A stretch of DNA of 64,000 nt, taken from positions 62,001 to 126,000 of the forward strand of contig NZ_JAJMLZ010000004.1 in assembly GCF_022227765.1 (NCBI RefSeq), written 5' to 3'. Below the pieces are notes generated by a model. It was not told the origin of the DNA and did not search any database. It worked only from the letters and a program-made list of their open reading frames with translations. Shown here one piece after another: positions 12,941 through 49,200 of this stretch (position 1 is its first letter; each line of letters begins with the position of its first letter). The stretch is from Ectothiorhodospira shaposhnikovii (GTDB lineage Bacteria > Pseudomonadota > Gammaproteobacteria > Ectothiorhodospirales > Ectothiorhodospiraceae). The position numbers were made by a program, and so were the translations under genes.

Positions 12941-14035
12941 TCAGCCGCCAAACACGCTCTGACCGTCGATCTCTTCCAGCACAGCCCTTGGGTACTCGTT
13001 GACCTGGATCTCACGAACCATCCCGTCACGCTGAATCTGGCGCCGCTGTACCTGGATCGGTATTTCTCTCTCCTTGCAGATCCTGGCCGCACGGCTGCCC
13101 AGCGAAGCCTTCTGGCTCTTGGTCATGTAGCGGTGGGTGAGGGCGCGGTATTCGTCCACGGTCAGGTAGTTCAGATGCTGTCCCATGGTTGAGATGGTCT
13201 TTTGCTGATGACGAACCATGACCTCGGCCCTTTCTGCGCGCTCGCATTGGTCGGCTGCCAGCCGAAGCGCCTCCGGCAGTGTCTTGGGGATGTCGAAGGC
13301 GTTTTCTGGTTGGGCACGGTATTCCCCGGTTCTGCGGATGGCCGGGAGAACTTCGCCGGCGATCCACTTCTGGAAGGGGAGCGATTTGGGCTTGTTACTG
13401 CGAGCCAAAAAGAAGTACAGTCCAGGCTCGGAAAGGCAAGTCAAGTCTTGAGTACCGGATGGGGTACGAATCGGATTCGTACCCCTCCATTCTTCAGGTA
13501 CATGCTTGACCAGATTGCTGTCGAACTTGGTGTACCCCAGCGCCTCGGCAATGTCCTTGGCCACAAACCAAAGCTCCCCGCCAACCTCCGTCACCCTGAC
13601 ATCCATCCCCTCGAACATGAAGGGAACCTCTCTTGGCTGCGTCTGAGCCACCGGCTCGGGCACGCCAGCGATCTCCGGTTCCGTCTCCGGCGTCGGTTCG
13701 ACTTCCGGCAGGTTTGAAAGCGCCGGAATGACCGTATCGTTCAGCCACTGACTGACCCGCACGCTGTTTGCCGTGCTGCTTCTGGACAGCATCATGACCG
13801 CCGCGCTGTGGGTGATGATCTTGACGGCGATGATGCCGCTGGACACGCGGATGCTCTGCTCGTCCACCATGCCCTTGCCAAGTTTCTTCTCGATCAGAGC
13901 CTCTGCTCTGGTCACTGGGATGGTGGTCCCCATGGCGTTGAGCAAGTCCTTGGCGACCATCCAAAGTTGACCATCACGAAGGACAAAGCGGATTTCGTGG
14001 TTTTGAAAGGCAAAGGTGATGATCTCGGTATTCAT
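12941..14035 (-). CDS. Tandem Bro-N antirepressor-like protein, 364 aa
   Basis: Start at 14035 (MNTEIITFAFQNHEIRFVLR), chosen for AGGAGC upstream. There are two Bro-N-like domains in one chain: residues about 3-100 (LWMVAKDLLNAMGT, then MMLSRSSTANSVRVSQWLND) and about 135-240 (LWFVAKDIAEALGYTKFDSN, CLSEPGLYFFLARSNKPKSL). A Pro/Glu linker (EVEPTPETEPEIAGVPEPVA) joins them. The C-terminal domain (YLTVDEYRALTHRYMTKSQK) is shared with the 259-aa protein. The first domain is more diverged. Probably a regulator. Confidence 0.85.
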   Translation of the reverse strand: MNTEIITFAFQNHEIRFVLRDGQLWMVAKDLLNAMGTTIPVTRAEALIEKKLGKGMVDEQSIRVSSGIIAVKIITHSAAVMMLSRSSTANSVRVSQWLNDTVIPALSNLPEVEPTPETEPEIAGVPEPVAQTQPREVPFMFEGMDVRVTEVGGELWFVAKDIAEALGYTKFDSNLVKHVPEEWRGTNPIRTPSGTQDLTCLSEPGLYFFLARSNKPKSLPFQKWIAGEVLPAIRRTGEYRAQPENAFDIPKTLPEALRLAADQCERAERAEVMVRHQQKTISTMGQHLNYLTVDEYRALTHRYMTKSQKASLGSRAARICKEREIPIQVQRRQIQRDGMVREIQVNEYPRAVLEEIDGQSVFGG

Positions 14036-14115
14036 TTTTGCTCCTGGCAACGACCTCAATCGGCCTCACCATAGTTATAGAAGGAAGGCTCGGAAGGTTG
14101 CCGGTTCCAGTGGCC

Positions 14116-14165
14116 AAATCAATATAGTGTGCTTGATATAATTCCAAGCCCCCAAATATTGATTT
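14116..14165. promoter_or_regulatory. nrdD promoter region with inverted repeat
   Basis: TATAAT at 14137-14142 is a likely -10 box. It lies between AAATCAATAT (14116-14125) and its exact inverse ATATTGATTT (14156-14165). ATATAGTGT at 14122-14130 fits half of an NrdR box, and ATCAA/TTGAT half-sites recall FNR-type sites, but neither forms a full consensus. Confidence 0.5.
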
Positions 14166-14183
14166 CCACGGAAAGAATCGTCC

Positions 14184-15929
14184 ATGCAGCAACCTCATTT
14201 TCCCTCCGCAGAATCCGGCCAGAAGCCCAAAGTTGACGTTGGTTCGTCCATCGAAGAGTACCTGGACCGTTCCGACTGGCGGGTGAATGCCAACGCCAAC
14301 CAGGGTTACTCTCTGGGCGGCCTGATCCTCAACACCTCCGGCAAGGTGGTTGCAAATTACTGGCTGAGCCACGTCTATCCCGAAGCCGTGGGTCAGGCCC
14401 ACCGCGACGGCGACTATCACATTCACGATCTCGACCTCCTGGCCGGTTACTGCGCTGGCTGGTCCCTGCGCACCCTGCTGGTGGAAGGTTTCAACGGCGT
14501 GCCGGGTAAGGTGGAGTCGGCGCCGCCCCGCCACTTCTCCTCCGCCGTGGGCCAGATCGTCAATTTCCTGGGCACGATGCAGAACGAGTGGGCCGGCGCT
14601 CAGGCGTTCTCCAGCTTTGATACCTACATGGCTCCGTTTGTCCGTATCGACAACCTGACCTACGAGCAGGTCAAGCAGCACATGCAGGAACTGATCTACA
14701 ACCTGAACGTGCCGTCCCGGTGGGGCTGTCAGGCTCCGTTCGTCAATCTGACCTTCGATTGGGTCTGCCCGGAAGACCTGCGGGAGCAGGTGCCCGTCAT
14801 CGGCGGCCGGGAGCAGGATTTCTGCTACGGCGACCTGCAGGCGGAGATGGACATGATCAACCGGGCCTACATCGAGGTCATGACCGAGGGCGATGACAAG
14901 GGTCGCGTGTTCACGTTCCCCATTCCCACCTACAACATCACCCAAGACTTTCCCTGGGAAAGCGAAAATGCCCAGCGCCTGTTTGAAATGACCGCCAAGT
15001 ACGGCCTGCCGTATTTCCAGAATTTCGTCAATTCGGAGCTGTCGCCCAACATGGTGCGTTCCATGTGCTGCCGGCTGCAGCTTGACCTGCGGGAACTGCT
15101 CAAGCGTGGCAACGGCTTGTTTGGCTCGGCGGAACAGACCGGCTCCCTGGGCGTCGTGACCATCAACTGCGCCCGCCTTGGGTATCTTTTCCGTGGAGAC
15201 GAAGCCGGCCTGATGCAGCGCCTGGATCATCTTCTGGATCTGGCCAAGGAAAGCCTGGAGATCAAGCGCAAGTTCATTACCGACCACATGCAAACCGGCC
15301 TGTTCCCCTACAGCAAGCGGTATCTGGGTACCCTGCGCAACCACTTCTCCACCATCGGCGTGAATGGCATCAATGAAATGATCCGCAACTTCACCCACGA
15401 TGCCGAGGACATCACCACGGAGTTTGGTCATGCCATGGCCCTGCGTCTGCTGGATCATGTCCGCGCCAGGATGCTGGAGTTCCAAGAGGAAACGGGGAAT
15501 ATGTACAACCTGGAGGCAACGCCGGCCGAAGGAACCACCTACCGCTTTGCCCGCGAGGACAAGAAGCGGTATTCGGACATCATCCAGGCCGGCACCGACG
15601 AGGCGCCTTACTACACCAACAGCTCCCAGCTCCCGGTGGGCTTTACCGACGATCCCTTCGAGGCGCTGGCCCGCCAGGAGGCTCTGCAGACCCGTTACAC
15701 CGGCGGGACCGTGCTGCACCTGTACATGAACGAACGGGTGTCCTCTGCGGAAGCCTGTAAGCGTCTGGTACGCCGGTCGCTGGAGAATTTCCGGCTGCCC
15801 TACATCACCGTGACGCCAGTGTTCTCGATTTGCCCCAAGCATGGGTACATCGCCGGTGAACACACCTTCTGCCCCAAATGCGACGAGGAAATCATCGCTC
15901 GCAAGAAGGCCAAACTCAAAGCTGCCTGA
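14184..15929 (+). CDS. nrdD: Anaerobic ribonucleoside-triphosphate reductase, catalytic part, 581 aa
   Basis: Class III RNR, which reduces NTPs to dNTPs by glycyl-radical chemistry without oxygen. Family features: GDYHIHDLDLLAGYCAGWSL with a candidate catalytic Cys, SMCCRLQLDL for the second Cys region, NLEATPAEGTTYRFA holding the active-site Glu, and a C-terminal zinc site CPKHGY...CPKC. The chain stops 15 residues after CPKC, so the glycyl-radical RVxGY segment is missing; it is encoded by the next gene. There is no N-terminal ATP-cone, so dATP inhibition is probably absent. Confidence 0.95.
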   Translation: MQQPHFPSAESGQKPKVDVGSSIEEYLDRSDWRVNANANQGYSLGGLILNTSGKVVANYWLSHVYPEAVGQAHRDGDYHIHDLDLLAGYCAGWSLRTLLVEGFNGVPGKVESAPPRHFSSAVGQIVNFLGTMQNEWAGAQAFSSFDTYMAPFVRIDNLTYEQVKQHMQELIYNLNVPSRWGCQAPFVNLTFDWVCPEDLREQVPVIGGREQDFCYGDLQAEMDMINRAYIEVMTEGDDKGRVFTFPIPTYNITQDFPWESENAQRLFEMTAKYGLPYFQNFVNSELSPNMVRSMCCRLQLDLRELLKRGNGLFGSAEQTGSLGVVTINCARLGYLFRGDEAGLMQRLDHLLDLAKESLEIKRKFITDHMQTGLFPYSKRYLGTLRNHFSTIGVNGINEMIRNFTHDAEDITTEFGHAMALRLLDHVRARMLEFQEETGNMYNLEATPAEGTTYRFAREDKKRYSDIIQAGTDEAPYYTNSSQLPVGFTDDPFEALARQEALQTRYTGGTVLHLYMNERVSSAEACKRLVRRSLENFRLPYITVTPVFSICPKHGYIAGEHTFCPKCDEEIIARKKAKLKAA

Positions 15930-15955
15930 AACCATTACCTCTCAAGGAGACAATC

Positions 15956-21131: not shown

Positions 21132-21827
21132 ATGATGGAACGAAAATCCTTGCAGATCGCAAATATGCAACTGTCGCAAGCTGATCCCAAAACCTTGCTT
21201 CCAAACCCGTTCAACCCCAACGTGGTGACGCCGGAAAACGAAGAAAAACTCTCTGCCAGCGTTGACCGGCTGAGCATGTTCAAGCCGATTCTGGTTCGCA
21301 CCCTTGAGAGCGGTCGCCTTGAAATTCTGGGCGGACACCATCGCAATGTGATTGCCATTCGCAAGGGCTTTGAAAGCGTGCCGATTCTGAACCTTGGCAA
21401 GATTTCTGACGACAAGGCCAAGGAAATCGCCCTGATTGACAACAGTCGATATGGCGCGGACGACTCCCAGAAGCTCTCCGAAATCCTTTCTGAACTTGGC
21501 AGTCCGGAAGAGTTGGCCACCTTTATGCCTTTCAGCCAGGTCGATTTTGAGTCGATCTTCTCAAGCACAAGTATAGAGCTGGAAGACTTAGGCATCGAAG
21601 ACGACGAAGAGCCTACCCATATCGAATTTCCGACCCTGCCGAAGATTCAGACCCACCAAGTCATGCGCTTCAAGGTGCCATCCGAAGATGCCGCGAGGGT
21701 GTCCGAGGTGCTGGAGCGCATCATGAAAACTCAAGGCTTCACCGAACAGGACTCGCTGACCAATGCCGGCGATGCCCTGGTGTGGCTGATTACCAACGCC
21801 GTAGAGACTGAAGATGGACAAGTTTGA
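21132..21827 (+). CDS. ParB-like domain protein, 231 aa
   Basis: Residues about 15-105 fit the ParB/sulfiredoxin N-terminal fold: NPFNPNVVTPENEEKLSASV, then ILGGHHRNVIAIRKGFESVP and KEIALIDNSRYGADD. GGHHR stands where partition ParB has GERR, so CTP or nucleotide handling may differ. The C-terminal 100 residues are acidic and unassigned. No obvious ribosome-binding site precedes ATGATG. First gene of a tightly overlapped operon to 25438. Confidence 0.85.
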   Translation: MMERKSLQIANMQLSQADPKTLLPNPFNPNVVTPENEEKLSASVDRLSMFKPILVRTLESGRLEILGGHHRNVIAIRKGFESVPILNLGKISDDKAKEIALIDNSRYGADDSQKLSEILSELGSPEELATFMPFSQVDFESIFSSTSIELEDLGIEDDEEPTHIEFPTLPKIQTHQVMRFKVPSEDAARVSEVLERIMKTQGFTEQDSLTNAGDALVWLITNAVETEDGQV

Positions 21828-21942
21828 CGAGTGCCACGACTGCGATAACCGACACACCGACCTTTGCGAAGAGTGTCACGCTGGCGAGTTTTTCGAGGAG
21901 CGCGAAGAAGAGAGTCCCTTTGACTGCTTGGAGGCCGCATGA
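21814..21942 (+). CDS. Small zinc-ribbon protein, 42 aa
   Basis: Overlaps the end of the ParB-like gene by 14 bases and the next start by four. CHDCDNRHTDLCEECH has two CxxC pairs separated by eight residues, a compact zinc ribbon, and the rest is acidic. Its position between two ParB-like genes suggests it acts with them; function unknown. Confidence 0.65.
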   Translation: MDKFDECHDCDNRHTDLCEECHAGEFFEEREEESPFDCLEAA

Positions 21943-22601
21943 GCCAGCAGCTTGAGTCGTGGGACATTGGCAGGCTGATCCCTTACGAGAAGAACGCCAA
22001 AAAGCACACGCCGGAGAAGATCAACAAGCTGGCCAATGCCATTCGTGAGTTTGGCTGGGACCAGCCCATCGTCGTTGATAAGGACGGCGTGATCATCAAG
22101 GGCCACGGCCGGCGCCTGGCCGCCCTGCAGCTTGGCATGACCAAGGTGCCGGTACTGGTTCGGCGCGATCTGACGCCGGAGCAGGTCAAAGCTGCCCGTC
22201 TGTCGGACAACCGGGTGGCTTACGGTGAAATCGACGCCGATCTGCTGCAGGAGGAATTGCGCAGCCTGCAGAGCGCCGCCTTTGATCTTGGCGTGATTGG
22301 CTTCGACGAAAAAGAGCTGTCCTTCCTGACCGAAGAATTGACCGAAATGGATCTGGATTCCCTGGTGGAAGACCTGAATGCCGAGGTCAATGAGCAGGCT
22401 CAGGCCGGTGATCGTCACGTCAAGGATGCCAAGGAGCGCACAGTCAAGCTGCAAGAGGCGTTCGGATTCTCCGGCTTCACCATCGAACAGGCCCGCGTCG
22501 TTACCCGCTTCATGAGCCAACTGGAGAGCGAGTCCGGAAAGAGCGGCGCCGAGGCGCTGGTTGAGTTTGTTCAGGGGCTGGTGGAGGCGTCATGGAACTG
22601 A
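21939..22601 (+). CDS. ParB-like domain protein, 220 aa
   Basis: Clear ParB-type N-terminal domain: LIPYEKNAKKHTPEKINKLA, FGWDQPIVVDKDGVIIKGHG followed by RRLAALQLG, and RLSDNRVAYGEID. This subtype, with GHGRR, is common beside phage DNA methyltransferases and other modification genes. C-terminal half acidic and helical. Overlaps the zinc-ribbon gene and the ATPase gene. Confidence 0.9.
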   Translation: MSQQLESWDIGRLIPYEKNAKKHTPEKINKLANAIREFGWDQPIVVDKDGVIIKGHGRRLAALQLGMTKVPVLVRRDLTPEQVKAARLSDNRVAYGEIDADLLQEELRSLQSAAFDLGVIGFDEKELSFLTEELTEMDLDSLVEDLNAEVNEQAQAGDRHVKDAKERTVKLQEAFGFSGFTIEQARVVTRFMSQLESESGKSGAEALVEFVQGLVEASWN

Positions 22602-23236
22602 CCATCACCAAGAAGTTCAGCTCCACGGCGGAACGCTCGCCAAGAGTGCTTGAGGTGGCCGAAGCCTTTGGTCTGGGCCTGGCTGAAAAGGAATTTGTGA
22701 TCTACGACGACCTGAAGCTGGAGATTCGCCAGGGCGACGTGGTGTATGTCACCGGCCAGTCAGGGTCCGGCAAGTCGATCATCCTGCGCGAGATCGAGCA
22801 GGAGATGGTCAAGCACGGTGCCAAGGTGGCCAACATCGACATGGTGCCCATGGAAAGCCGCGCCTTGATTGATCAGGTGGGCACCGACATGGCCGATGCC
22901 ATCCGTCTGCTGTCTCTGGCCGGCCTCAATGACGCCTACCTGTTCATCCGCAAGCCAGAAGAACTCTCCGACGGCCAAAAGTACCGATTCCGGCTGGCCA
23001 AGCTGATCGAGTCTGGATCAACCGTGTGGGTGGCCGACGAGTTTACTGCCACTCTGGATCGGATCACCGCAGCCGTGGTCGCCTTCAATCTGCAGAAGAT
23101 CGCCCGCAAGGTCGGGGCCACGGTCATCGTTGCCACCACCCACATGGACCTTCGGGAAAGTCTCCAGCCCTCCCTGTACATCGAGAAGTATTACCGGGAC
23201 CGCCTGCATGTCGAGCGGCCCGTGGAGCAAAAGTGA
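22592..23236 (+). CDS. ABC-type ATPase, soluble, 214 aa
   Basis: Walker A GQSGSGKS (residues about 55-62), ABC signature LSDGQKYRFRLAKL, Walker B VWVADEFTATLDR and a switch His in ATTHMD, all in order. There is no membrane partner, so it is not a transporter but a soluble ABC ATPase coupled to the ParB-like and GNAT proteins. Its start overlaps the previous stop by 10 bases. Possible role: energy-dependent step or DNA engagement in a modification reaction (inference). Confidence 0.88.
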   Translation: MELTITKKFSSTAERSPRVLEVAEAFGLGLAEKEFVIYDDLKLEIRQGDVVYVTGQSGSGKSIILREIEQEMVKHGAKVANIDMVPMESRALIDQVGTDMADAIRLLSLAGLNDAYLFIRKPEELSDGQKYRFRLAKLIESGSTVWVADEFTATLDRITAAVVAFNLQKIARKVGATVIVATTHMDLRESLQPSLYIEKYYRDRLHVERPVEQK

Positions 23237-23610
23237 TGAACGACAACCAAATTGAGCAGGAAATCCAGGCCAAAGGGCTTAACGCCCCCCGCGTGACGCC
23301 CGAGGATATCGAGGCGAACATCGTGGCCGAGCACTTCTTCACTGCGCTCGACGGTCGGGCCGGCGCCATTCATGCAGAAACTTACGTTGGACGCGAAGCG
23401 CCTTGCGCTGACGACAGTGATCTGGCTTCGCTGGGCTTGCTGACCTTCTGCGTTTTGGTTTTGCGCAATGGATTCACCGTTACCGGAGAGTCGGCCTGCG
23501 CCTCGCCGGAGAACTTCGATGCCGACCTGGGCCGAAAGCGTGCCCGGATGAACGCTGTTCAGAAGGTGTGGCCTCTGATGGGGTATGCGCTGAAGGAGAA
23601 GTTGGCATGA
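23236..23610 (+). CDS. Phage gp49/gp66-like protein, 124 aa
   Basis: Start at 23236 overlaps the previous stop (TGATG). The pattern LTFCVLVLRNGFTVTGESAC, then DADLGRKRARMNAVQKVWPL and MGYALKEKL matches the widespread Phage_gp49_66 family, whose function is not established. Family members are common among early genes of temperate and lytic phages. Confidence 0.85.
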   Translation: MNDNQIEQEIQAKGLNAPRVTPEDIEANIVAEHFFTALDGRAGAIHAETYVGREAPCADDSDLASLGLLTFCVLVLRNGFTVTGESACASPENFDADLGRKRARMNAVQKVWPLMGYALKEKLA

Positions 23611-23897
23611 AATTTCAGGCAGCCTACAGCTATTTGAAGCGCGGCCATGCGATTGCCCTGCCGGAGTGGGGTGGGTTTTGGAGGTGGAACAACGAAACCA
23701 AATCCATCGACATGCACAGGCGCAATGGTCAGGTGATGGACCTTCGTAGCACGGAGGATCTGGATTACACCCTGTCCTTTATGTTCCGAGACGACTGGGT
23801 GCTGGTGAAGTGCGCTGGCGAGACGGAGCACGTCAAAAACCGAGAGGCCGTGGATGCGGATACGGACAACTTCCCGGCAGGGTGGGAATCCGCATGA
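23607..23897 (+). CDS. DUF2829 (Tad2-like) protein, 96 aa
   Basis: Start at 23607 is chosen for its ATGA overlap with the previous stop. The family pattern is present: MKFQAAYSYLKRGHAIALPE, W-x-x-x-x-x-W, SIDMHRRNGQVMDLRST and FRDDWVLV (typical DUF2829 has a hydrophobic-D-x-DW end). The DUF2829 phage protein Tad2 sequesters the signalling molecule of Thoeris defence. The match here is by pattern only, and binding residues were not checked. Coupled to the RyR gene. Confidence 0.75.
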   Translation: MKFQAAYSYLKRGHAIALPEWGGFWRWNNETKSIDMHRRNGQVMDLRSTEDLDYTLSFMFRDDWVLVKCAGETEHVKNREAVDADTDNFPAGWESA

Positions 23898-24274
23898 TCA
23901 GCGTCGAAGACGTTGCCAAGGTCGCCCATGAGGTCAACCGGGCCTACTGTCTGGCTGCGACCAACGACGACACTCAAAAGCCATGGGAAGAGACGCCGCA
24001 GTGGCTGCGCGAGTCGGTCATTGCCGGAGTAAGGTTTCATCTGACCAACCCACAGGCCGGCCCCGAGGCCAGCCACGAAAACTGGCTTGAGTACAAAAGA
24101 GCCGAAGGCTGGCGGTACGGCCACCGCAAGGACGAGGCCAAGAAGCTGCATCCTTGCATGATTCCCTTTGTCGATCTGCCACGCTCCCAGCAGACCAAGG
24201 ATCACCTGTTCCGGGCCGTTGTTCATGCCCTGATGGACAAGATCAACGAGAAGCCCGTAGAGGCGCGAAACTGA
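23894..24274 (+). CDS. RyR-domain protein, 126 aa
   Basis: Start at 23894, overlapping the preceding stop as ATGA. The ryanodine-receptor repeat pattern is complete: VEDVAKVAHEVNRAYCLAAT, W-x-x-x-P, NPQAGPEASHENWLEYKRAE followed by GWRYG, then KKLHPCMIPFVDLP and KDHLFRAVVHAL. RyR domains in prokaryotes and phages are thought to bind nucleotides. Coupling to a Tad2-like gene suggests a joint role in nucleotide sensing or sequestration (inference). Confidence 0.88.
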   Translation: MISVEDVAKVAHEVNRAYCLAATNDDTQKPWEETPQWLRESVIAGVRFHLTNPQAGPEASHENWLEYKRAEGWRYGHRKDEAKKLHPCMIPFVDLPRSQQTKDHLFRAVVHALMDKINEKPVEARN

Positions 24275-24275
24275 C

Positions 24276-25163
24276 ATGATCTTGACCGAGACAGCAGACA
24301 TTCTTGTGGAGCGCCCCGAGACGTTCTCAGGGGCTTTCCCGTTGCTTTCCGGCATGTATGTTGAGCGCGGAACGAACGATGACTGGAAGGCGCTGCAGGA
24401 ACTGCACTACAAGGGCGAAGGCCGGGTGCTGGGCCGGGTGTATCGCTGCATGTTGGATGGCCAACTGGTCGGCGTGGCCATGATGTCTTCCCCGCGCCTG
24501 CTGCTGTCTGGCCGCCATGATGTCTTCCCCAAGCTCAGAAATGGCCAGGACACCCACCTGGTCAACGTCCACCGGGCAAAGTTCGTCAACCGGCACTTTG
24601 TTCTCAACTCGCGGATCGTGGTGGACACCATGTTCCGGGCCGCCGGTGTGTCCTATCGGTTTCTCAACCTGGTAGCCAGAATGGAAGGCAAGTCCTTCGT
24701 TGAAATCCAGTCCTCAATGAGCCGGTTCAATCCCTTTGCCATTCGGGCCGGATTTCAATTCGCCAAGCCAAAGCACTCCAACGCCTACGAGAAGGGCCTG
24801 ACCTTGATCACGCGGCACTTCGACAGCCACCCGGCGGATGCGCTGGGCATCCTGGCCGAGATCGAGGCGATGCCCGAGGCGTACCGGGAGCGTGTGCTTG
24901 ATGAGCTGCGCCTGTTCTACCTGAAGAACTCGGCCCGAGAGCAAACCGGGACCAACCTGCATGGACCGAACCTTGAGCGCATCAAGACCTACAGCAACAC
25001 CCGTCTAATCAAGAGTCTCGTTCAGCTTGTGTTCTCCACCCCCATGTACGGCGTCTATCGCAATCCGGACGCTGGCAAGGCACTGCCGGAGCGCCTGCCG
25101 CTGCTGGCATTTGACAACCAAAAACCCAGCGAGCCGCTGGATCTTCAGCGAATCAAAGCATGA
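24276..25163 (+). CDS. Mom-like GNAT-fold protein, 295 aa
   Basis: The GNAT-type core (residues about 15-165) includes LQELHYKGEGR, MLDGQLVGVAMMSSP, VNVHRAKFVNRHFVLNSRIV and SMSRFNPFAIRAGFQFA. This resembles Mu Mom and relatives, which alter adenine in phage DNA, more than ordinary acetyltransferases. The C-terminal 130 residues are helical and unassigned. Its position with ParB-like and ABC ATPase genes supports a DNA-modification role. Assignment is by pattern; substrate unknown. Confidence 0.7.
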   Translation: MILTETADILVERPETFSGAFPLLSGMYVERGTNDDWKALQELHYKGEGRVLGRVYRCMLDGQLVGVAMMSSPRLLLSGRHDVFPKLRNGQDTHLVNVHRAKFVNRHFVLNSRIVVDTMFRAAGVSYRFLNLVARMEGKSFVEIQSSMSRFNPFAIRAGFQFAKPKHSNAYEKGLTLITRHFDSHPADALGILAEIEAMPEAYRERVLDELRLFYLKNSAREQTGTNLHGPNLERIKTYSNTRLIKSLVQLVFSTPMYGVYRNPDAGKALPERLPLLAFDNQKPSEPLDLQRIKA

Positions 25164-25438
25164 CCAAGAAACAGCGGGCCATTCTGATGGTGGTGAACCG
25201 TGGCAATCCGGACGGTTCGTTTGTGGACGTGGACCAGATCATCGAGCGGGTGCCTTATCCCGCGAGAAAGGATGCCATCAAGCTCTCTCTGCGGATTCTG
25301 GAGGGGCACGGCTGCATCCGGAGACTTCCTCTGGAAAAGCGCCGTGGTCAGAAGAGGCGGGTTATTGCCCCAACCCCGAAGGGTATGCAGGTGACGGCGC
25401 CGGCCCTCTCCGCGTCAGAGATCGGCGTGTCCCTGTAG
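25160..25438 (+). CDS. Winged-helix protein, 92 aa
   Basis: ATGA overlap with the GNAT gene. MTKKQRAILMVVNRGNPDGS, then VDQIIERVPYPARKDAIKLS and LRILEGHGCIRRLPLEKRRG fits a small winged helix-turn-helix with a basic wing (KRRGQKRRV). It could regulate the operon or bind DNA for the modification proteins. Last gene before the pac-like region. Confidence 0.7.
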   Translation: MTKKQRAILMVVNRGNPDGSFVDVDQIIERVPYPARKDAIKLSLRILEGHGCIRRLPLEKRRGQKRRVIAPTPKGMQVTAPALSASEIGVSL

Positions 25439-39903: not shown

Positions 39904-40264
39904 GTGGGACGGTCTGCTCGACAAGCGGTTTGAGTTGGGCGGTCGCGGGCCAGATACCTTCGATTGTTACGGTCTGGTTCAGGAAATCTACCGGCGCCAA
40001 GGCATTCAGGTGCCAGATTACGCAACCCCCGAATCAGGTCCACTGATTGCCGCACTTATCGCCATGGAGCTGCGCCTGTGGGAGAAGGTCGATCCCCAGG
40101 CCGGCGCCATGGCTGTTTTTCGCATTCCGGGCAGTCTCCATGTTGGTTACTGCCTGAGTTCGCACGAGTTCATTCATGTTTGGGAAGGCTCAAATTGCGT
40201 CATTCGTGAGCGTTTGAACCTTTGGAAACCACGTTTGATTGGTTGCTACCGTTATGTCGGCTGA
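39896..40264 (+). CDS. NlpC/P60 tail peptidase, gpK-like, 122 aa
   Basis: Start at 39896 (MSEWDGLLDKRFELGGRGPD). The catalytic Cys lies in FDCYGLVQEIYR and the His in LHVGYCLSSHEFIHVWEGSN, as in NlpC/P60 peptidases. It would cut peptidoglycan at the tail tip during entry. Lambda K normally has an extra N-terminal MPN domain, which is absent here. Confidence 0.85.
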   Translation: MSEWDGLLDKRFELGGRGPDTFDCYGLVQEIYRRQGIQVPDYATPESGPLIAALIAMELRLWEKVDPQAGAMAVFRIPGSLHVGYCLSSHEFIHVWEGSNCVIRERLNLWKPRLIGCYRYVG

Positions 40265-43200
40265 GATCCTTCTGGCAAATCCCGTCTTCATCAACCGCAT
40301 TCGCTTGATGAACCCCTTTGACCCCTCTGATCGGGTCATCGAGTCGCTTCCCTGGTCTTACGGGAAGACCATCCGCGATTATCTGCCGGAAGATAGCGGC
40401 AATGCCGTGGTCAGCGTCAGCGGTCGCATCGTGCCGGAAAGCGAGTTTGATGTCGCCATCGACGCGGATCAGACCATCGTAATCTGTCAGGTTCCGCACG
40501 GTGGCGGCGACGGCGGCAAAAACGTGCTTCGCATCGCGGCCCTGATTGCCATTGCCGTGTTTGCCCCTGCGGCTGGCGGTTGGGCCGCAGGTGCCATGGG
40601 CGCAAGCACAACCGGCTTGGTGGCCGGCGCCATGCAGGTGGGCTTCATCATTGGCGGCTCCATGCTGGTCAATGCGGTTCTGCCGCCTCCGGAAGATTCC
40701 CTGAAGGGCAGCGACAAGAGTAAGCCGACCTACGGCATGGATGGCCCCAAGAACTCATCCACGGAAGGCGTGGCGGTCCCTATCTGCTACGGCACAACCA
40801 GGATGGGTGGCAACCTCATCGCCCGGCATGTGGAGAACATTGGCAAAAATCAATACCTGTACATGCTGCTCAATGCCGGTGAGGGGCCGGTGGCCAGCTT
40901 GACGGACATTGAAATTAACGACCAGCCTCTGTATCTGCCCGGCACTTCGGAAAAAACCTTTGTCGATGTGGACGTGGTGATGAAGCCATGCGGCTCCGTT
41001 GACAGCATGGATGATGAGGAATACCAGAAGCTCTACACCTGGTTTGGCCAGGTCATCGACCCGGTAAATCGCGGGGTTCGCCTCAGCAATAGCTACACTC
41101 TGCACACGACCGGCGCCCCGGTGGATGCTCTGCGTCTGGACTTTGTGTTGCCCGGCGGCCTGTTCCATGTGAACAAAAAAGGGAAAACCAAGGAGCACTC
41201 CGTCACCATTGAGGCTGAATATCGCCTCAACGGCACGAGCACATGGGTCAAATTCCCCAACCACAGCATAGTCGATGGTCATAATAGAATTTTCAAGGTT
41301 TTCAAGTCGTCTCTTTTGGGCGACCGCATCAAAACTACCGTAGAAACCACGACTACACAGCCATCCAATACGACCATTCAAGGCACCAAGATCCTCAATA
41401 GCAAGGGCATGGTTATTGGCTTTGTTGAAAGGGTAAACAGGTACGGTACAAGCACCAAGGTGACGCTGAAGAAGACTTCGGCCTACCGCTTCTCCATTGC
41501 CAGTGACAAGCTGCCGCGTGGCGTTTACCACATTCGCGTCAGACGTTCTTCTGCCGAAAGCACCGATACCAAGACGGTTGATAGAGTTGATTTGGTGGAT
41601 GTGAATGAGATCCAGCATTCCAAGGTTGGCTATCTCAATACCGCCCTGGTCGGAATCCGGATTCGCGCCAACGACCAGCTTTCATCGCTGCCGTCTGTCA
41701 CCTACATCAACCACGGCAAGATCATCCGAGTCTACGACACCACTGCAGGCCAGTGGACGTTGGAGGCGAGCAACAATCCGGCCTGGATCACGCTGGACGC
41801 AATGACCAACGAGATTTATGGCGGCGGCCTGTCGGATGACCGCTTCAACCTGGACAACTGGATCGAATGGGCAGAGCACTGCCGGGCCAATGATCTGACC
41901 TTCGATGGTCTGATTGATGGTCAAAGCAACCTGTGGGACGCCCTGCAGCCGGTATTCCGCGCCGGCCACGCCCGTCTTCTGAGAACCGGAACCCGTTATT
42001 CGGTGGCTATCGAGCGTGCCGCCGATCCGGTTATGTCCTTCAACGTCGCCAATATCATCGAAGGTTCGTTCCAGGTTAGTTGGCTACCCATGTCCGACCG
42101 CGCCAACGAGATCGAGGCGACCTTTGCCGACAAGGAAAAGGGCTACCAGCCCACCACGATCAAGCTCTACGACAAGGCGGCTCTGCAGATGGGATTGCCG
42201 CCTCGCACCTCGAAAATCAACCTGCCCGGCATTGTGGAGACGGACAAGGCCGTGCGCGAGGCCCAGCTTCAGCTCAACATGAACCGATACATTCGCCAGT
42301 CGGTCACGTTCGATGCGCTGGTCGAGGCTATCGGTTGCCATATTGGCGACGTGATCCTGGTTCAGCACGACATGCCCCAGTGGGGCTACGGCGGCCGCCT
42401 GGAGGCCGGAAGCACGAACACCAGCCTGAAGCTGGACCGGCCGGTGAGAATGCTCTCTGGACGCTCCTACAAGGCGCTGGTGGCTTTTGACGCGCTGAAG
42501 GTGCATACGGGCACCGTTCACAGCGTATCGTCCACCCTGGTCCGCGTAAGCGGGTTTGACGGCACCAAGCGGGTTCGCCGTCTGAAGATCAACGGAAAGG
42601 AGCACGAGATCATCCGTGTGGTTTCCGGCAGTGTGGACGGCGTAGTGATTGCCAGCACCGCAGGCATCAATCCCGGTCAGACGTGTGAGCTTTGGGATAC
42701 CGATGCTCTTGTTGAGCGCAATGTGATCTTTGCCGCCGGTGAAACAGACCAGATCAACCTGGTAACGCCGCTTCCGGAAGCCCCCGCAAGGTTGACCAAG
42801 TGGTTGTTTGGCGAAACTGAAAGGATCAGCAAGCCCTTCCGCGTAACCGCCATTGCCGGCAGTAGTGACTATGTGAGGACTATCGAGGCGACCGAGTACA
42901 GTGCCAGCGTCTACGATATGTCTGGCATCATTCACCCCATCATCAACTACTCCGACTTGGTTGCCGGCATTGGTCATGTGCAAAACCTGACGCTGGCCGA
43001 AGAGATTGAGTTTGCCGGGGATCAGCCTATTTCGACCATCTCCGTAGGCTGGATGGAGTCCGAGAGCGGCGCCTATGCAGGGGCCAACGTCTACGCCTCC
43101 ATCAACGACTCCGCGATGGAGATGGTTGAGTCTGTCCGTGGCGCCAGAACCTCTTTCCGTCTTGGCGGGCTTGATATTGGTGACAAGGTGAGGGTGCGCG

Positions 43201-46200
43201 TGGTTGCGGTGGATACCGTTGGGGCCGCCGCCAATTTCGCCACTGCGCCGACCAGAGAGATCACCGTCACCGGCAAGACTCAGGCATCAGAGGACATGAT
43301 GCTCAATGACTTTCAGGCGGAGGGTGGCGTTTTGGCCGCCACGCTGACCTGGGTTGAACCTGAAGGATTGGACTTTGCCAGGGTTGAGGTCTGGCGCAAC
43401 ACCACGAACAATCAAAGCACTGCCGTCATGGTCAGCTACGCAGTGGGCGGTCGCTTTCAGGATCTGCTCTACCAGCCCGGAACCTACTGGTACTGGGCAA
43501 GGCCAGTGGACACCTCGAAGAATTACGGTCCCTGGGTAGGTCCGGCATCCGCCACGGTAACGTCCATCGCTTCGAGCACCGAGGAAATTCTGGAAAAGCT
43601 CACCGGGGAGATTCGCAAGGATCACCTCTTTACCGAGCTTGCCAAGGAAATCGAGCTGATTTCCGGCAACGGCGAAGGCTCTGTCAACCAGCGCATCTTG
43701 GAAGAGGCTCAGGCCCGAATTGAAGAGGCCGAGCAGCTTGCCACCGAGATTGGCGCAGTGGCTTCTGCCATTGCAGCGGAGGCTACGGAAAGAGTTGGTC
43801 AAGTCTCTGCGCTTGCAGGGGAGATCGGCACCGTTGCTTCGGCCATCAACGCCGAGGCTCAAGCCCGGATTGCGCAAGGAAATGCGCTTGCAGGGGAGAT
43901 CGGCACCGTTGCTTCGGCCATCAACGCCGAGGCTCAAGCCCGGATTGCGCAAGGAAATGCGCTGGTTGGAGAGCTTGAGAGTGTATCTTCCTCTCTCGCC
44001 TCTGAAGTGCAAGCCAGGGTCGAACAGGGCAACGCGCTGGCCGACAGTATCGTGGCCGAAAGCGAGGCCCGCATGGTGGCTATCGGCGCGGCAAAAGACG
44101 CGCTCCAGGCCGAGATCGACGGTCTGATGGCAACCGTGTCTGACCTGCAGGGCGTCAGTGAGTACGACCCTGACGGCGGATACGAAAAGGACGCTCTGGT
44201 GAAGTACCAGGGGGCGCTCTACAAGGCCCGGCAGAATCTGGCAGCCCCGGTGCCACTGCCGACGAACGGGACTTTCTGGGCGAAGGTGGGCGACTATGCC
44301 TCCTTGGGCGAGGCTGTAGCGGCCCACGCTGCTCAACTCAGCAGTCACGGTACGCGGATCACCACGGCGGAGGGCAATATCACGTCCCAAGGCCAATCCA
44401 TCAGCACGCTGCAGTCCACAATTAACAATCCGACCACCGGACTTGCGTCTAAGGCGTCCATTACCGCGCTGAATAACGCCATCACCACAGAGCAGAACGC
44501 CAGAGCGTCGGCGGTCAACAGCATCAACACGAATCTGGCAAACAACTACGCCACCAAGACCGACTTGACCACGGCAGAGTCGAACATCAAAGGCGCTTCC
44601 GTCGACAGCTTCAGCCAGATCAAGACTCGTTTTGACGGGGTAGATACCGCCATCGGGCAGCGTGCAACCACAACGGCCATGAACACGGCCATAAGCACTG
44701 CCAAGAGCGACGTATTCGGGGCGGAAGTCACCAGCTTCAGTAAGATCAACACTCGCTTTCAGCAGACTGATACTGCCATCGGCCAGCGCGTCACCATTGA
44801 AAACTTCAACAGCGCCATATCTACCGAGCAAAGCGCCCGTGGCACGGCGATTCAACGCCTGGCCGCCATTCGAGACACGGATAATCTGATCCCCGATGGT
44901 AATTTCTCCATCAGTTCCAGGCTCAATGCGTTTTCTTCGTACTGGTCCACATCTTCTGCCTGGCTCACGCAAAGCGAAGGCGGCGCAAGCAATGGCCCGT
45001 GTCTGCGAATCAACTCTGGCAGTGCAAACCGTGACGTTTATGTGCGCGATGGAAATGCCGCAACGCTCCTGCTCCCGGTAAACTCCGGGGAAACCTTCAC
45101 GGTATCGTTCAAGTACCTCTATTCCTCGGATTTCGCATCCATCGGGAATCGCCTGAGTCTGCTTTTGTTGGTGAGAAATGCAGATGACAGTGCCACTTTG
45201 CAGACCCTGACCGTAAGTACGACCGTTTCCACTTTGAACTCGTGGCTTGAACGAACCCATACGGTAGTTGCGAGTGCGTCGGGCGCGGCCTTCCTGCGCG
45301 TGTTTATCCGCCTCAATTCCAGCGCAACCGCAGGTCACGTCCTGGTCAGCGATGTGAAACTGACCAAGATGGCATCGAGAGCCGAACTTCAGTCGGTTCA
45401 GGATGCGCTGACGAGCGAAACCCAGGCTCGCGTAGACGCCATCAATACCATCAATGCGAATCTGAATGACAACTACGCCACCAAGACTGATCTGACCACG
45501 GCAGAGACGAACATCAAAGGCTCTGCGGTCAATACGTTCAGTCAAATCAATGCCCGGTTTACCTCCACTGACACGGCCATCAATAACCGGCCGACCACTT
45601 CAGCGATGAACACCGCTATCAGCGATGCAAAGGCTGACGTGTTCGGGGCGGAAGTCACCAATTTCAGTAAAATCAACGCCAAATTCAGCGCGACCGACAC
45701 TGCGCTCAACGCCAGACCCACTACCACGGCGATGAACACCGCCATAGATAGTGCAAAGGCCGATGTGTTTGGCGCGGCTGTCAGTAGTTTTAGCCAGATC
45801 AACACCCGATTCACTTCCACTGACACGGCCATCAACAATCGTCCCACGACGACGGCCATGAACACCGCTATCAACACGGCCAAGAGTGACGTGTTTGGGG
45901 CCTCCGTTGACAGCTTCAGTCAGATCAAGACGCGCTTTGATGGGGTGGACGGTGCTATTGGAACTAGAGCCACCATTGACCAGCTCAATACGGCCATCTC
46001 CAACGAGCAAAGTGCCAGGGTAACGGCGATCCAGAATTTGGCCGCCGCGAGAGATGTGGAAAATCTCGTGCCCGATGGCAGTTTTGCCTTGAGCGCACGC
46101 GCCGGTGCCGTTGATAGCTACTGGGTGCCACACTCGACCCTACTTGTTCAGAGTGACGGTGGCTATGCCGGCGCTCCTTGTGCGCGGGTAAATTCGTCCA

Positions 46201-49200
46201 CGACCAACAGAGACTATTGGGCCAGGGATGGCGCCGGTCGGCTCCTGCTGGTCCCGGCTGTCACCGGCGAGACGGTCACTGTGTCGTTTTGGTATCGGTA
46301 CTCCGAGGATTTTGCTTCGGTGGGAAATCGGTTCCGGATTCGACTGTTGGCGCGGGATTTTGGTGACACTGTTACCCAGCAAACCATAGATTGTGTGACT
46401 CAGACGAGCACTGTCGGTCAGTGGCACTTCAGAACTGCCACCTTCACGATCACGGCCACTGCCGTGGCGTGGATTCGTGCTGCTCTGCGGATCGACTCTT
46501 CGGCCACTGCCGGTCACATCCTCATCAGCGACCTTCGCGTTTCGCGGATGGCGTCGAAGGCTGAGCTTCAGTCTGTCCAGAGTGCCTTGGCTGACGAGAC
46601 AACGGCTCGCGTCAACGCCGTAAACACCATCAACACGAATCTGGCGAACAATTACGCCACCAAAACAGAGCTGACCAACGCTGAAACCAACATCAAGGGT
46701 TCAGCAGTCAACACCTTCAGCCAGATTCACGCTAAGTTTAACGCGACCGATACCGCCATCAACAATCGCCCCACCACTACGGCGATGAACACGGCCATCA
46801 GTGATGCGAAGGCTGACGTGTTCGGGGCGGCCGTTACCAACTTCAGCCAGATTGACGCTCGATTCACTTCGACCGATACGGCCATCAACAATCGCCCGAC
46901 CACTACGGCGATGAATACGGCCATCAACACCGCTAAGGCCGACGTGCTTGGAGCTGCCGTCACCAGCTTCAGCCAAATCAATGCCCGGTTTACCTCTACT
47001 GATACCGCCATCAACAATCGCCCCACTACCACGGCGATGAACACGGCCATAAATGACGCCAAGGCCGATGTATTTGGCGCTGCCGTCACCAGCTTCAATC
47101 AGATCAACGCCAGATTTGCTTCCACTGACACGGCCATCGGTCAGCGCGTCACGGTTGACAGTTTTAACACGGCCATCTCCAACGAGCAGAGCGCCCGTGG
47201 CACCGCGATTCAACGTCTGGCCGCGATCCGCGACACGGATAACCTGGTCCCTGATGGCAATTTCGCCATCAGCTCTCGTTTGAATGCGTTTGCCTCCTAT
47301 TGGACGACAAACGCGAATTGGGCCATGCAGGCCGATGGTGGATTTAACAATGGCCCCTGCTTGCGGATCAACTCAGGCAGCGTACATCTGCAGCCCCATG
47401 CCAGAGATGGAAATGGTGCGACACTTCTTCTCCCGGTCAACTCCGGGGAAACCTTCACGGTGTCTTTCCGGTATTTCTACTCGACCGATTTTGCCAGCGT
47501 AGGCAATCGCCTGAGTGTTCGTCTCGCCATCAGAAATGTAACAGATAGCACCACCCTACAGACCCTGACGGTAGCCACCACTGACTCCACTCGCGGGGTG
47601 TGGCTTGAGCGCACTGCGACTGTGACGGTGAATGTCTCTGGGGCTGCGGTGGCTCGGATCTATGCTCAGCTCGACTCGACAGCCACTGCCGGTCACATCC
47701 TCATCAGTGACATCCGTGTGACCAGAACCGCCTCAAGAGCGGAGCTTCAGTCGGTTCAGGATGCGCTCACGACTGAAACCCAGGCTCGTGTGAATGCTAT
47801 CAATACCATCAACACGAACCTCAACAACAACTACGCCACCAAGACGGATCTGACCAATGCCGAAACCAGCATCAAGGGTTCGGCCGTCAACACCTTCAGC
47901 CAGATCAACGCCCGATTCACTTCCACTGACACGGCCATCAACGCCAGACCCACTACCACGGCGATGAACACCGCCATAGATAGTGCAAAGGCGGACGTGT
48001 TCGGAGCGGCCGTTACCAGTTTCACTCAAATCAACGCCCGATTCACTTCCACTGACACGGCCATCAACAACCGGCCGACCACTTCGGCCGTTCAGACGAC
48101 CGTAAACAACGCCGTCGCAGCGGAGACGCAGGCCAGGAACGAGGCGCTGCGTAAGCTGGAAACCGGCATGTCGGACCTGATTCGGAGAGTGGTGTGGAAC
48201 TTCGATACTGCAGTCGAGGGGTGGACGGCTGCTGGCGGCACCCATAGCATCGTCAATGGGGCCTTGAGGATCGCGTCCAGCGGGACAGACCCTCGCTCAG
48301 TGTCTCCGGTAGTTGCCATCAACGGCGCGGCAAACCGAGTCGTTCAGGCGAAGGTCATGCGTCTGGCCGGCAGTGGGTGGGATGGATCTCTCTACTATCA
48401 CACCTCCGGACACGGTGAAACCAATAGCTTCCGCAAGGTGATCCCCAACACTACCGTGCTGAACGAGTGGTGCATCCTTGAGTGGCGCATGGATGAGCTG
48501 ACTGCAGGTGGGGATGACTGGATCAACAGCACGATCACCAGAATCCGTATCGACCTCGGCAGCACTGCGAGCGACATCTTCCTCATCGACTGGGTTGCCA
48601 TTTGCGGCAATGGCGTTGAGACGCTGGCCACTAAAACCGAACTGGCAACGACTGAATCCAACATCAAGGGTTCAGCCGTCAACACCTTCAGTCAAATTCA
48701 TGCCAAGTTCAACGCAACGGACACGGCTCTCGACGCTCGCCCCACCACTACGGCGATGAACACGGCCATCAACACGGCCAAGAGTGACGTGTTTGGAGCG
48801 GCTGTCACCAGCTTCAGCCAGATCAACACGCGGTTTCAACAGACCGATACCGCCATCGGCCAGCGCGTTACCATCGACAACTTCAATACGGCTATCTCCA
48901 ACGAGCAGAGCGCCCGTGGGACCGCCATTCAGCGTCTGGCCGCGATCCGCGATAGCGACAACCTGATTCCTGATGGTAATTTCGCTCTCAGTTCCAGGCT
49001 CAATGCGTTGGCCTCTTACTGGACGACTCACTCCACCTGGGCGGTGCAGGCTGATGGCGGGTTCAACAACGGTCCTTGCCTAAGAAGGACCTCTGATGGC
49101 GCCAACCGCGACATTTACGCCAGAGACGGAAATGGGGCGACCCTGTTGGTCCCGGTCAACTCCGGCGAAACCTACACGGTATCGTACAAGTATTTCTACT

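Follow-up and report, generated by a model that had tools for sequence, protein, structure and literature searches.

A predicted counter-defence cassette of coupled Acb4-family, Tad2-fold and RyR genes in a probable prophage of Ectothiorhodospira shaposhnikovii

The window analysed here, a stretch of 64,000 nucleotides from Ectothiorhodospira shaposhnikovii, carries three small overlapping genes in the order Acb4, Tad2-fold and RyDEP (23236-24274). By analogy with published relatives, this locus is probably a translationally coupled counter-defence cassette, whose three small nucleotide-binding products would sequester the signals of both CBASS and Thoeris. The layout of the locus, the families of the outer genes, the fold of the middle gene product and the recurrence of Acb4 fused or adjacent to RyR and Tad2 were all observed; that the products bind ligands and protect against CBASS and Thoeris is predicted from the published relatives, and their joint assembly is likewise a prediction. 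Changed residues in the Acb4 pocket, the absence of the canonical Tad2 motifs, and relatives that lie by terminase, portal or head genes count against this reading. According to the proposed mechanism, the three small proteins would be co-produced upon infection or induction. The Acb4-family protein would sequester CBASS cyclic dinucleotides and the RyR protein would capture TIR-made cADPR isomers, the Thoeris signals 2'/3'cADPR, while the Tad2-fold protein would probably serve either as a further sponge, its ligand specificity altered, or as an accessory domain.

All three genes lie on the forward strand. The Acb4-family gene (23236-23610) encodes 124 residues, the Tad2-fold, DUF2829-like gene (23607-23897, ATG start) 96 residues, and the RyDEP-type RyR gene (23894-24274, ATG start) 126 residues. 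The stop codon of the first overlaps the start codon of the second as ATGA at 23607-23610, and the second is joined to the third in the same way at 23894-23897. A preliminary description of this DNA had placed the second and third genes and their shared ATGA at these positions, which the sequence confirms, and had concluded that the two are made together. Coupling is indeed likely, but it is not specific to that pair. Upstream, an ABC-type ATPase gene (phrog_293, 22592-23236, +), which lies outside the predicted sponge set, shares 1 nt with the Acb4 start; downstream, a phrog_886 gene (24276-25163, +), relevant here as context only, begins 1 nt past the RyR stop and runs into a phrog_900 gene through another ATGA (25160-25163). 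Because every junction from the ATPase gene to phrog_900 is tight and the entire operon is compact, coupling by itself is no proof of joint function. The operon spans 21132-25438, with two ParB-like proteins, the ABC ATPase, phrog_886 and phrog_900 around the cassette, and perhaps has a role in DNA modification or DNA handling. A search of NCBIfam with the three cassette genes returned no match.

The preliminary description had read the locus as a possible two-part unit and overlooked its upstream member; a three-gene cassette fits better. The product of 23236-23610 matches PF13876 ('Phage_gp49_66') with E 1.9e-29 and 102.4 bits against a cut-off of 27, and it is this match that makes the locus read Acb4, Tad2-fold, RyDEP. 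A profile built from this protein and 12 relatives (A6) has a single match in the PDB, Acb4 9E4W (E 3.1e-8). Acb4 proteins make up PF13876; the one from SPO1 is a sponge for CBASS cyclic dinucleotides, and each of eight tested homologs bound 3'3'-cGAMP (PMC11722364). Compared with SPO1 Acb4 (9E4W), the window protein keeps F48, F62 and a hydrophobic I66 (equivalent to F80, F94 and L98), has L for I66 and D for the backbone-contacting N63, and changes four further contacts (V56 to C, Y57 to A, T70 to R and K81 to P). The alignment shows that the pocket positions are variable in its relatives too. By transfer from the published relatives, the protein is a predicted sponge for CBASS cyclic dinucleotides. 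Unlike SPO1 Acb4, it is encoded by a gene coupled to genes for Thoeris-type sponges, and elsewhere members of its family are fused with such sponges.

Natural fusions were suspected since one protein family, PHROG 4435, matches the RyR gene and the Acb4-family gene alike. Among 120 nonredundant RyR loci, 11 have Acb4 fused (3) or adjacent (8), against 0.64 expected (Poisson tail 1e-10). Similarly, Acb4 is fused (3) or adjacent (6) in 9 of 89 canonical Tad2 loci, where 0.41 would be expected (Poisson tail 6e-10). In these counts, genes that share a strand and are at most 250 nt apart are called adjacent, and the expectation derives from the density of Acb4 elsewhere in the same loci, which were picked by similarity to the query and often have cut flanks; related phages among them are not fully independent. 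Eight fusion reading frames, redundant and out-of-set loci included, were read and scanned, and each domain scores above its Pfam cut-off: four join Acb4 to RyR (L052, L060, L078 and L346) and four join Acb4 to Tad2 (L002, L256, L284 and L305). Full-length or near full-length matches also occur in isolate phages, namely Vibrio phage vB_ValP_FGH and Erwinia phage Bue1 for Acb4-RyR, and Pasteurella phages Pm86 and Pmp13 and Alcaligenes phage QDWS595 for Acb4-Tad2. Such fusions suggest that phages assemble modular sponges with several targets. In a bolder and much more tentative version, phages fuse or co-translate Acb4 with domains of the RyDEP or Tad2 type, and a single polypeptide or assembly would thereby neutralise signals of CBASS and of Thoeris simultaneously, the window possibly holding a three-component version in which the Tad2-fold member binds a signal new for Tad2.

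The chances are about even that the three genes are independent morons, which share an operon since phages collect small anti-defence genes and each of which acts alone, the fusions then reflecting common selection and no complex. The exact triple was observed in the window alone, other neighbours stand beside the Tad2-like relatives, canonical Tad2 occurs in one of the 130 viral RyR records searched whole, and neither the 96-residue gene nor the RyR gene was found in the 46 other genomes of the host family (47 searched). Against independence stand the repeated in-frame fusions of Acb4 and its strong enrichment next to both partners.

Assignment of the middle gene to DUF2829 and Tad2, as proposed in the preliminary description, holds at the level of fold and remote homology, but the 96-residue protein scores 13.2 bits against PF11195, below the cut-off of 25. 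PF11195 is matched by 31 of 45 relatives (best 7.9e-6), and hhalign of the family with canonical Tad2s gives a probability of 89.6% and E 1.9e-6; the canonical set itself matches SPO1 Tad2, SptTad2, ModTad2 and AcrIIA7 at E 8e-14 or better. No significant match emerged when the PDB was searched by sequence with the protein alone or as a profile, and the relation to Tad2 is established by fold and profile-profile comparison only. In the AlphaFold model, residues 1-70 have block-mean pLDDT of at least 89, and a structure search with this model returned Tad2 or AcrIIA7 for all of the top 10 PDB entries (Z 7.0-7.8), the next unrelated row having Z 3.2. The modelled fold superposes on Tad2 over 60-63 residues with an rmsd of 1.5-1.9 Å. 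The N-terminal F..A...LK.G......W motif is shared with Tad2. In contrast, the canonical motifs R-x-GWNG and PWxxSQxDxLAxDW are replaced, and the internal insertion of Tad2 is lacking. Only G13, W21, G23, W64 and one position with S changed to T survive from the canonical set (alignments A3 versus A4). The family has its own invariants instead (LPxWGGxWxW ... DxR ... YT ... W), including L18, P19, W21, G22, G23, W25, T55 and W64, with D45, R47 and Y54 nearly invariant. As modelled, the protein thus has the Tad2 fold and belongs to a divergent sister family, to which the ligand of Tad2 is not transferable given the missed Pfam cut-off and the replaced motifs.

Some relatives of this protein have a single domain, and prophages of Halomonas-type hosts are among their sources; others are tandem proteins of Clostridia phages, with a window-type domain first and a canonical DUF2829 domain second. 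The tandem form is widespread in these phages (L094 3001-3495, and many loci among L118-L206). Terminase, portal or head genes adjoin most relatives, as identified from sequence or annotation and partly scanned; in the annotation of L093, for example, a DUF2829 gene adjoins a head scaffold gene and head genes. Loss of the canonical motifs and the recurrence of terminase, portal and scaffold genes nearby speak for a virion, packaging or unrelated anti-defence protein that is no nucleotide sponge, and DUF2829 does include the anti-CRISPR AcrIIA7. We consider this somewhat short of an even chance, because the fold is that of Tad2, relatives from Clostridia phages carry a canonical Tad2 domain on the same polypeptide, and Acb4 lies immediately upstream of the Tad2-fold gene in the window and in L178. 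Furthermore, in Vreelandella jeotgali (L002, the same as L176) an Acb4-Tad2 fusion is followed directly by a window-type Tad2-fold gene.

The RyR assignment made in the preliminary description is borne out. The 126-residue product scores 36.7 bits against PF02026 (cut-off 27.4) and matches the RyDEP crystal chain 35TM with E 7.8e-11. Its AlphaFold model has pLDDT 92 and matches RyR R12 domains (Z up to 9.4) and a Bacteroides RyR protein, and RyR proteins of Ruegeria and Pectobacterium phages are about 44-48% identical to it. RyDEP is its nearest relative of known function, and like RyDEP it is a small phage protein with an RyR/R12 domain. The DyoEdafos protein gp78, a RyDEP from a mycobacteriophage, cleaves 2'/3'cADPR as a glycosidase, through the dyad H75/D117 and the contacts W78 and H100 (PMC13232231, 2026). 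These four residues, H75, W78, H100 and D117, correspond with identical spacing to H61, W64, H86 and D103 in the window protein. The alignment with 35TM is ungapped across residues 75-113, in the C-terminal half, with an offset of 15, which would fit one additional tag residue in the deposited chain. H61 and W64 never vary among 89 aligned RyR homologs, and H86 and D103 hardly do; this near-universality supports family membership but does not discriminate a sponge from an enzyme.

Since the dyad is kept as H61/D103, the window protein might be expected to hydrolyse 2'/3'cADPR as the DyoEdafos RyDEP does. We regard this as unlikely. Six of eight other phage homologs tested bound 2'/3'cADPR, the tested homologs other than the DyoEdafos protein did not cleave it despite high conservation, and two homologs are nanomolar sponges that rescued phages from Thoeris (PMC13232231); moreover, a dyad that is present in nearly all homologs is no mark of hydrolysis. 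By analogy with the tested homologs, binding of 2'/3'cADPR is more likely than hydrolysis. The genomic settings differ as well, as the DyoEdafos RyDEP lies within a NARP1 NAD+ operon and the window RyR gene lies beside Acb4 and Tad2-fold genes. In Arthrobacter phage Argan (L327 1489-2223), an RyR gene stands immediately before one for a PnuC-like nicotinamide riboside transporter, which agrees with a connection of RyR proteins to NAD+ recovery.

Recurrence of the direct Tad2/RyR pair is weak, although both families recur with Acb4. As a common module the pair was rejected, the single hit among the 130 RyR records being L068, where RyR is followed by canonical Tad2 at 111 nt. From the Tad2 side, one locus (L219) has canonical Tad2 just ahead of a diverged RyR gene (759-1265) that has a long N-terminal extension and lacks equivalents of H86 and D103; a scan with this RyR as query found nothing beyond itself. 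None of the 11 close viral loci of relatives of the 96-residue protein has an RyR neighbour, nor does any member of the wider family except that in the window. Direct Tad2/RyR adjacency is therefore rare, seen in two other viral contigs. The ATGA overlap and the independent adjacencies in L068 and L219, in opposite orders, are what favour a dedicated two-part capture or sensor pair, a reading that is improbable because the pair is absent from every other RyR record searched, Acb4 is joined by the same ATGA overlap, and fusions were found with Acb4 whereas no Tad2-RyR fusion was. What endures from the preliminary description is counter-defence by signal capture, which is well grounded for the RyR protein through its published family and kept residues, equally so for the overlooked Acb4-family protein, and plausible for the Tad2-fold protein, whose comparison with Tad2 turned up the fold but not the canonical motifs.

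The bacterial genome measures 3.34 Mb, and the window lies on one of its contigs, of 295 kb. Genes for a phage helicase, terminase, portal, major head and tape-measure protein surround the cassette, an integrase gene lies about 31 kb to the left of the window, and host-type genes such as PEPCK start shortly past its right end. Together, these features indicate that the cassette is probably carried by a large prophage, whose extent is estimated from them. The window also holds a very long open frame downstream of the tail module (40239-50966, 3575 aa) and, on the reverse strand, a gene for a 653-residue protein with no Pfam or PHROG match that adjoins an anti-repressor gene (13974-15935). No SMODS CD-NTase was found in the host genome. 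It encodes two TIR_2 proteins, which are at most possible members of Thoeris. One is an 832-residue protein with NTPase-like and repeat-like regions (L329 682-3180, reverse strand), beside a 333-residue protein resembling a serine protease (L329 3450-4451, reverse strand); the other is a 515-residue NTPase-TIR protein (L325 430-1977, forward strand) whose gene adjoins one for a reverse transcriptase. Both are candidate defence genes.

The Acb4 and RyDEP families are already known, each described singly in separate studies (PMC11722364, PMC13232231). The searched portions of the text of these two papers describe neither an Acb4 fusion nor a cassette, and none of Acb4, Tad1 and Tad2 is named in the RyDEP text (PMC13232231); the literature searched, which covers few subscription journals, held no other report of either. 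The repeated fusions and the operon coupling show phages bringing anti-CBASS and anti-Thoeris domains together, and bifunctional proteins are predicted. Some Acb4 homologs carry 'additional extensions' (PMC11722364), for which the fusions offer an explanation. In addition, guilt by association with Acb4 provides a cheap route to further sponges, and a new ligand may well be found for the divergent Tad2-fold family.
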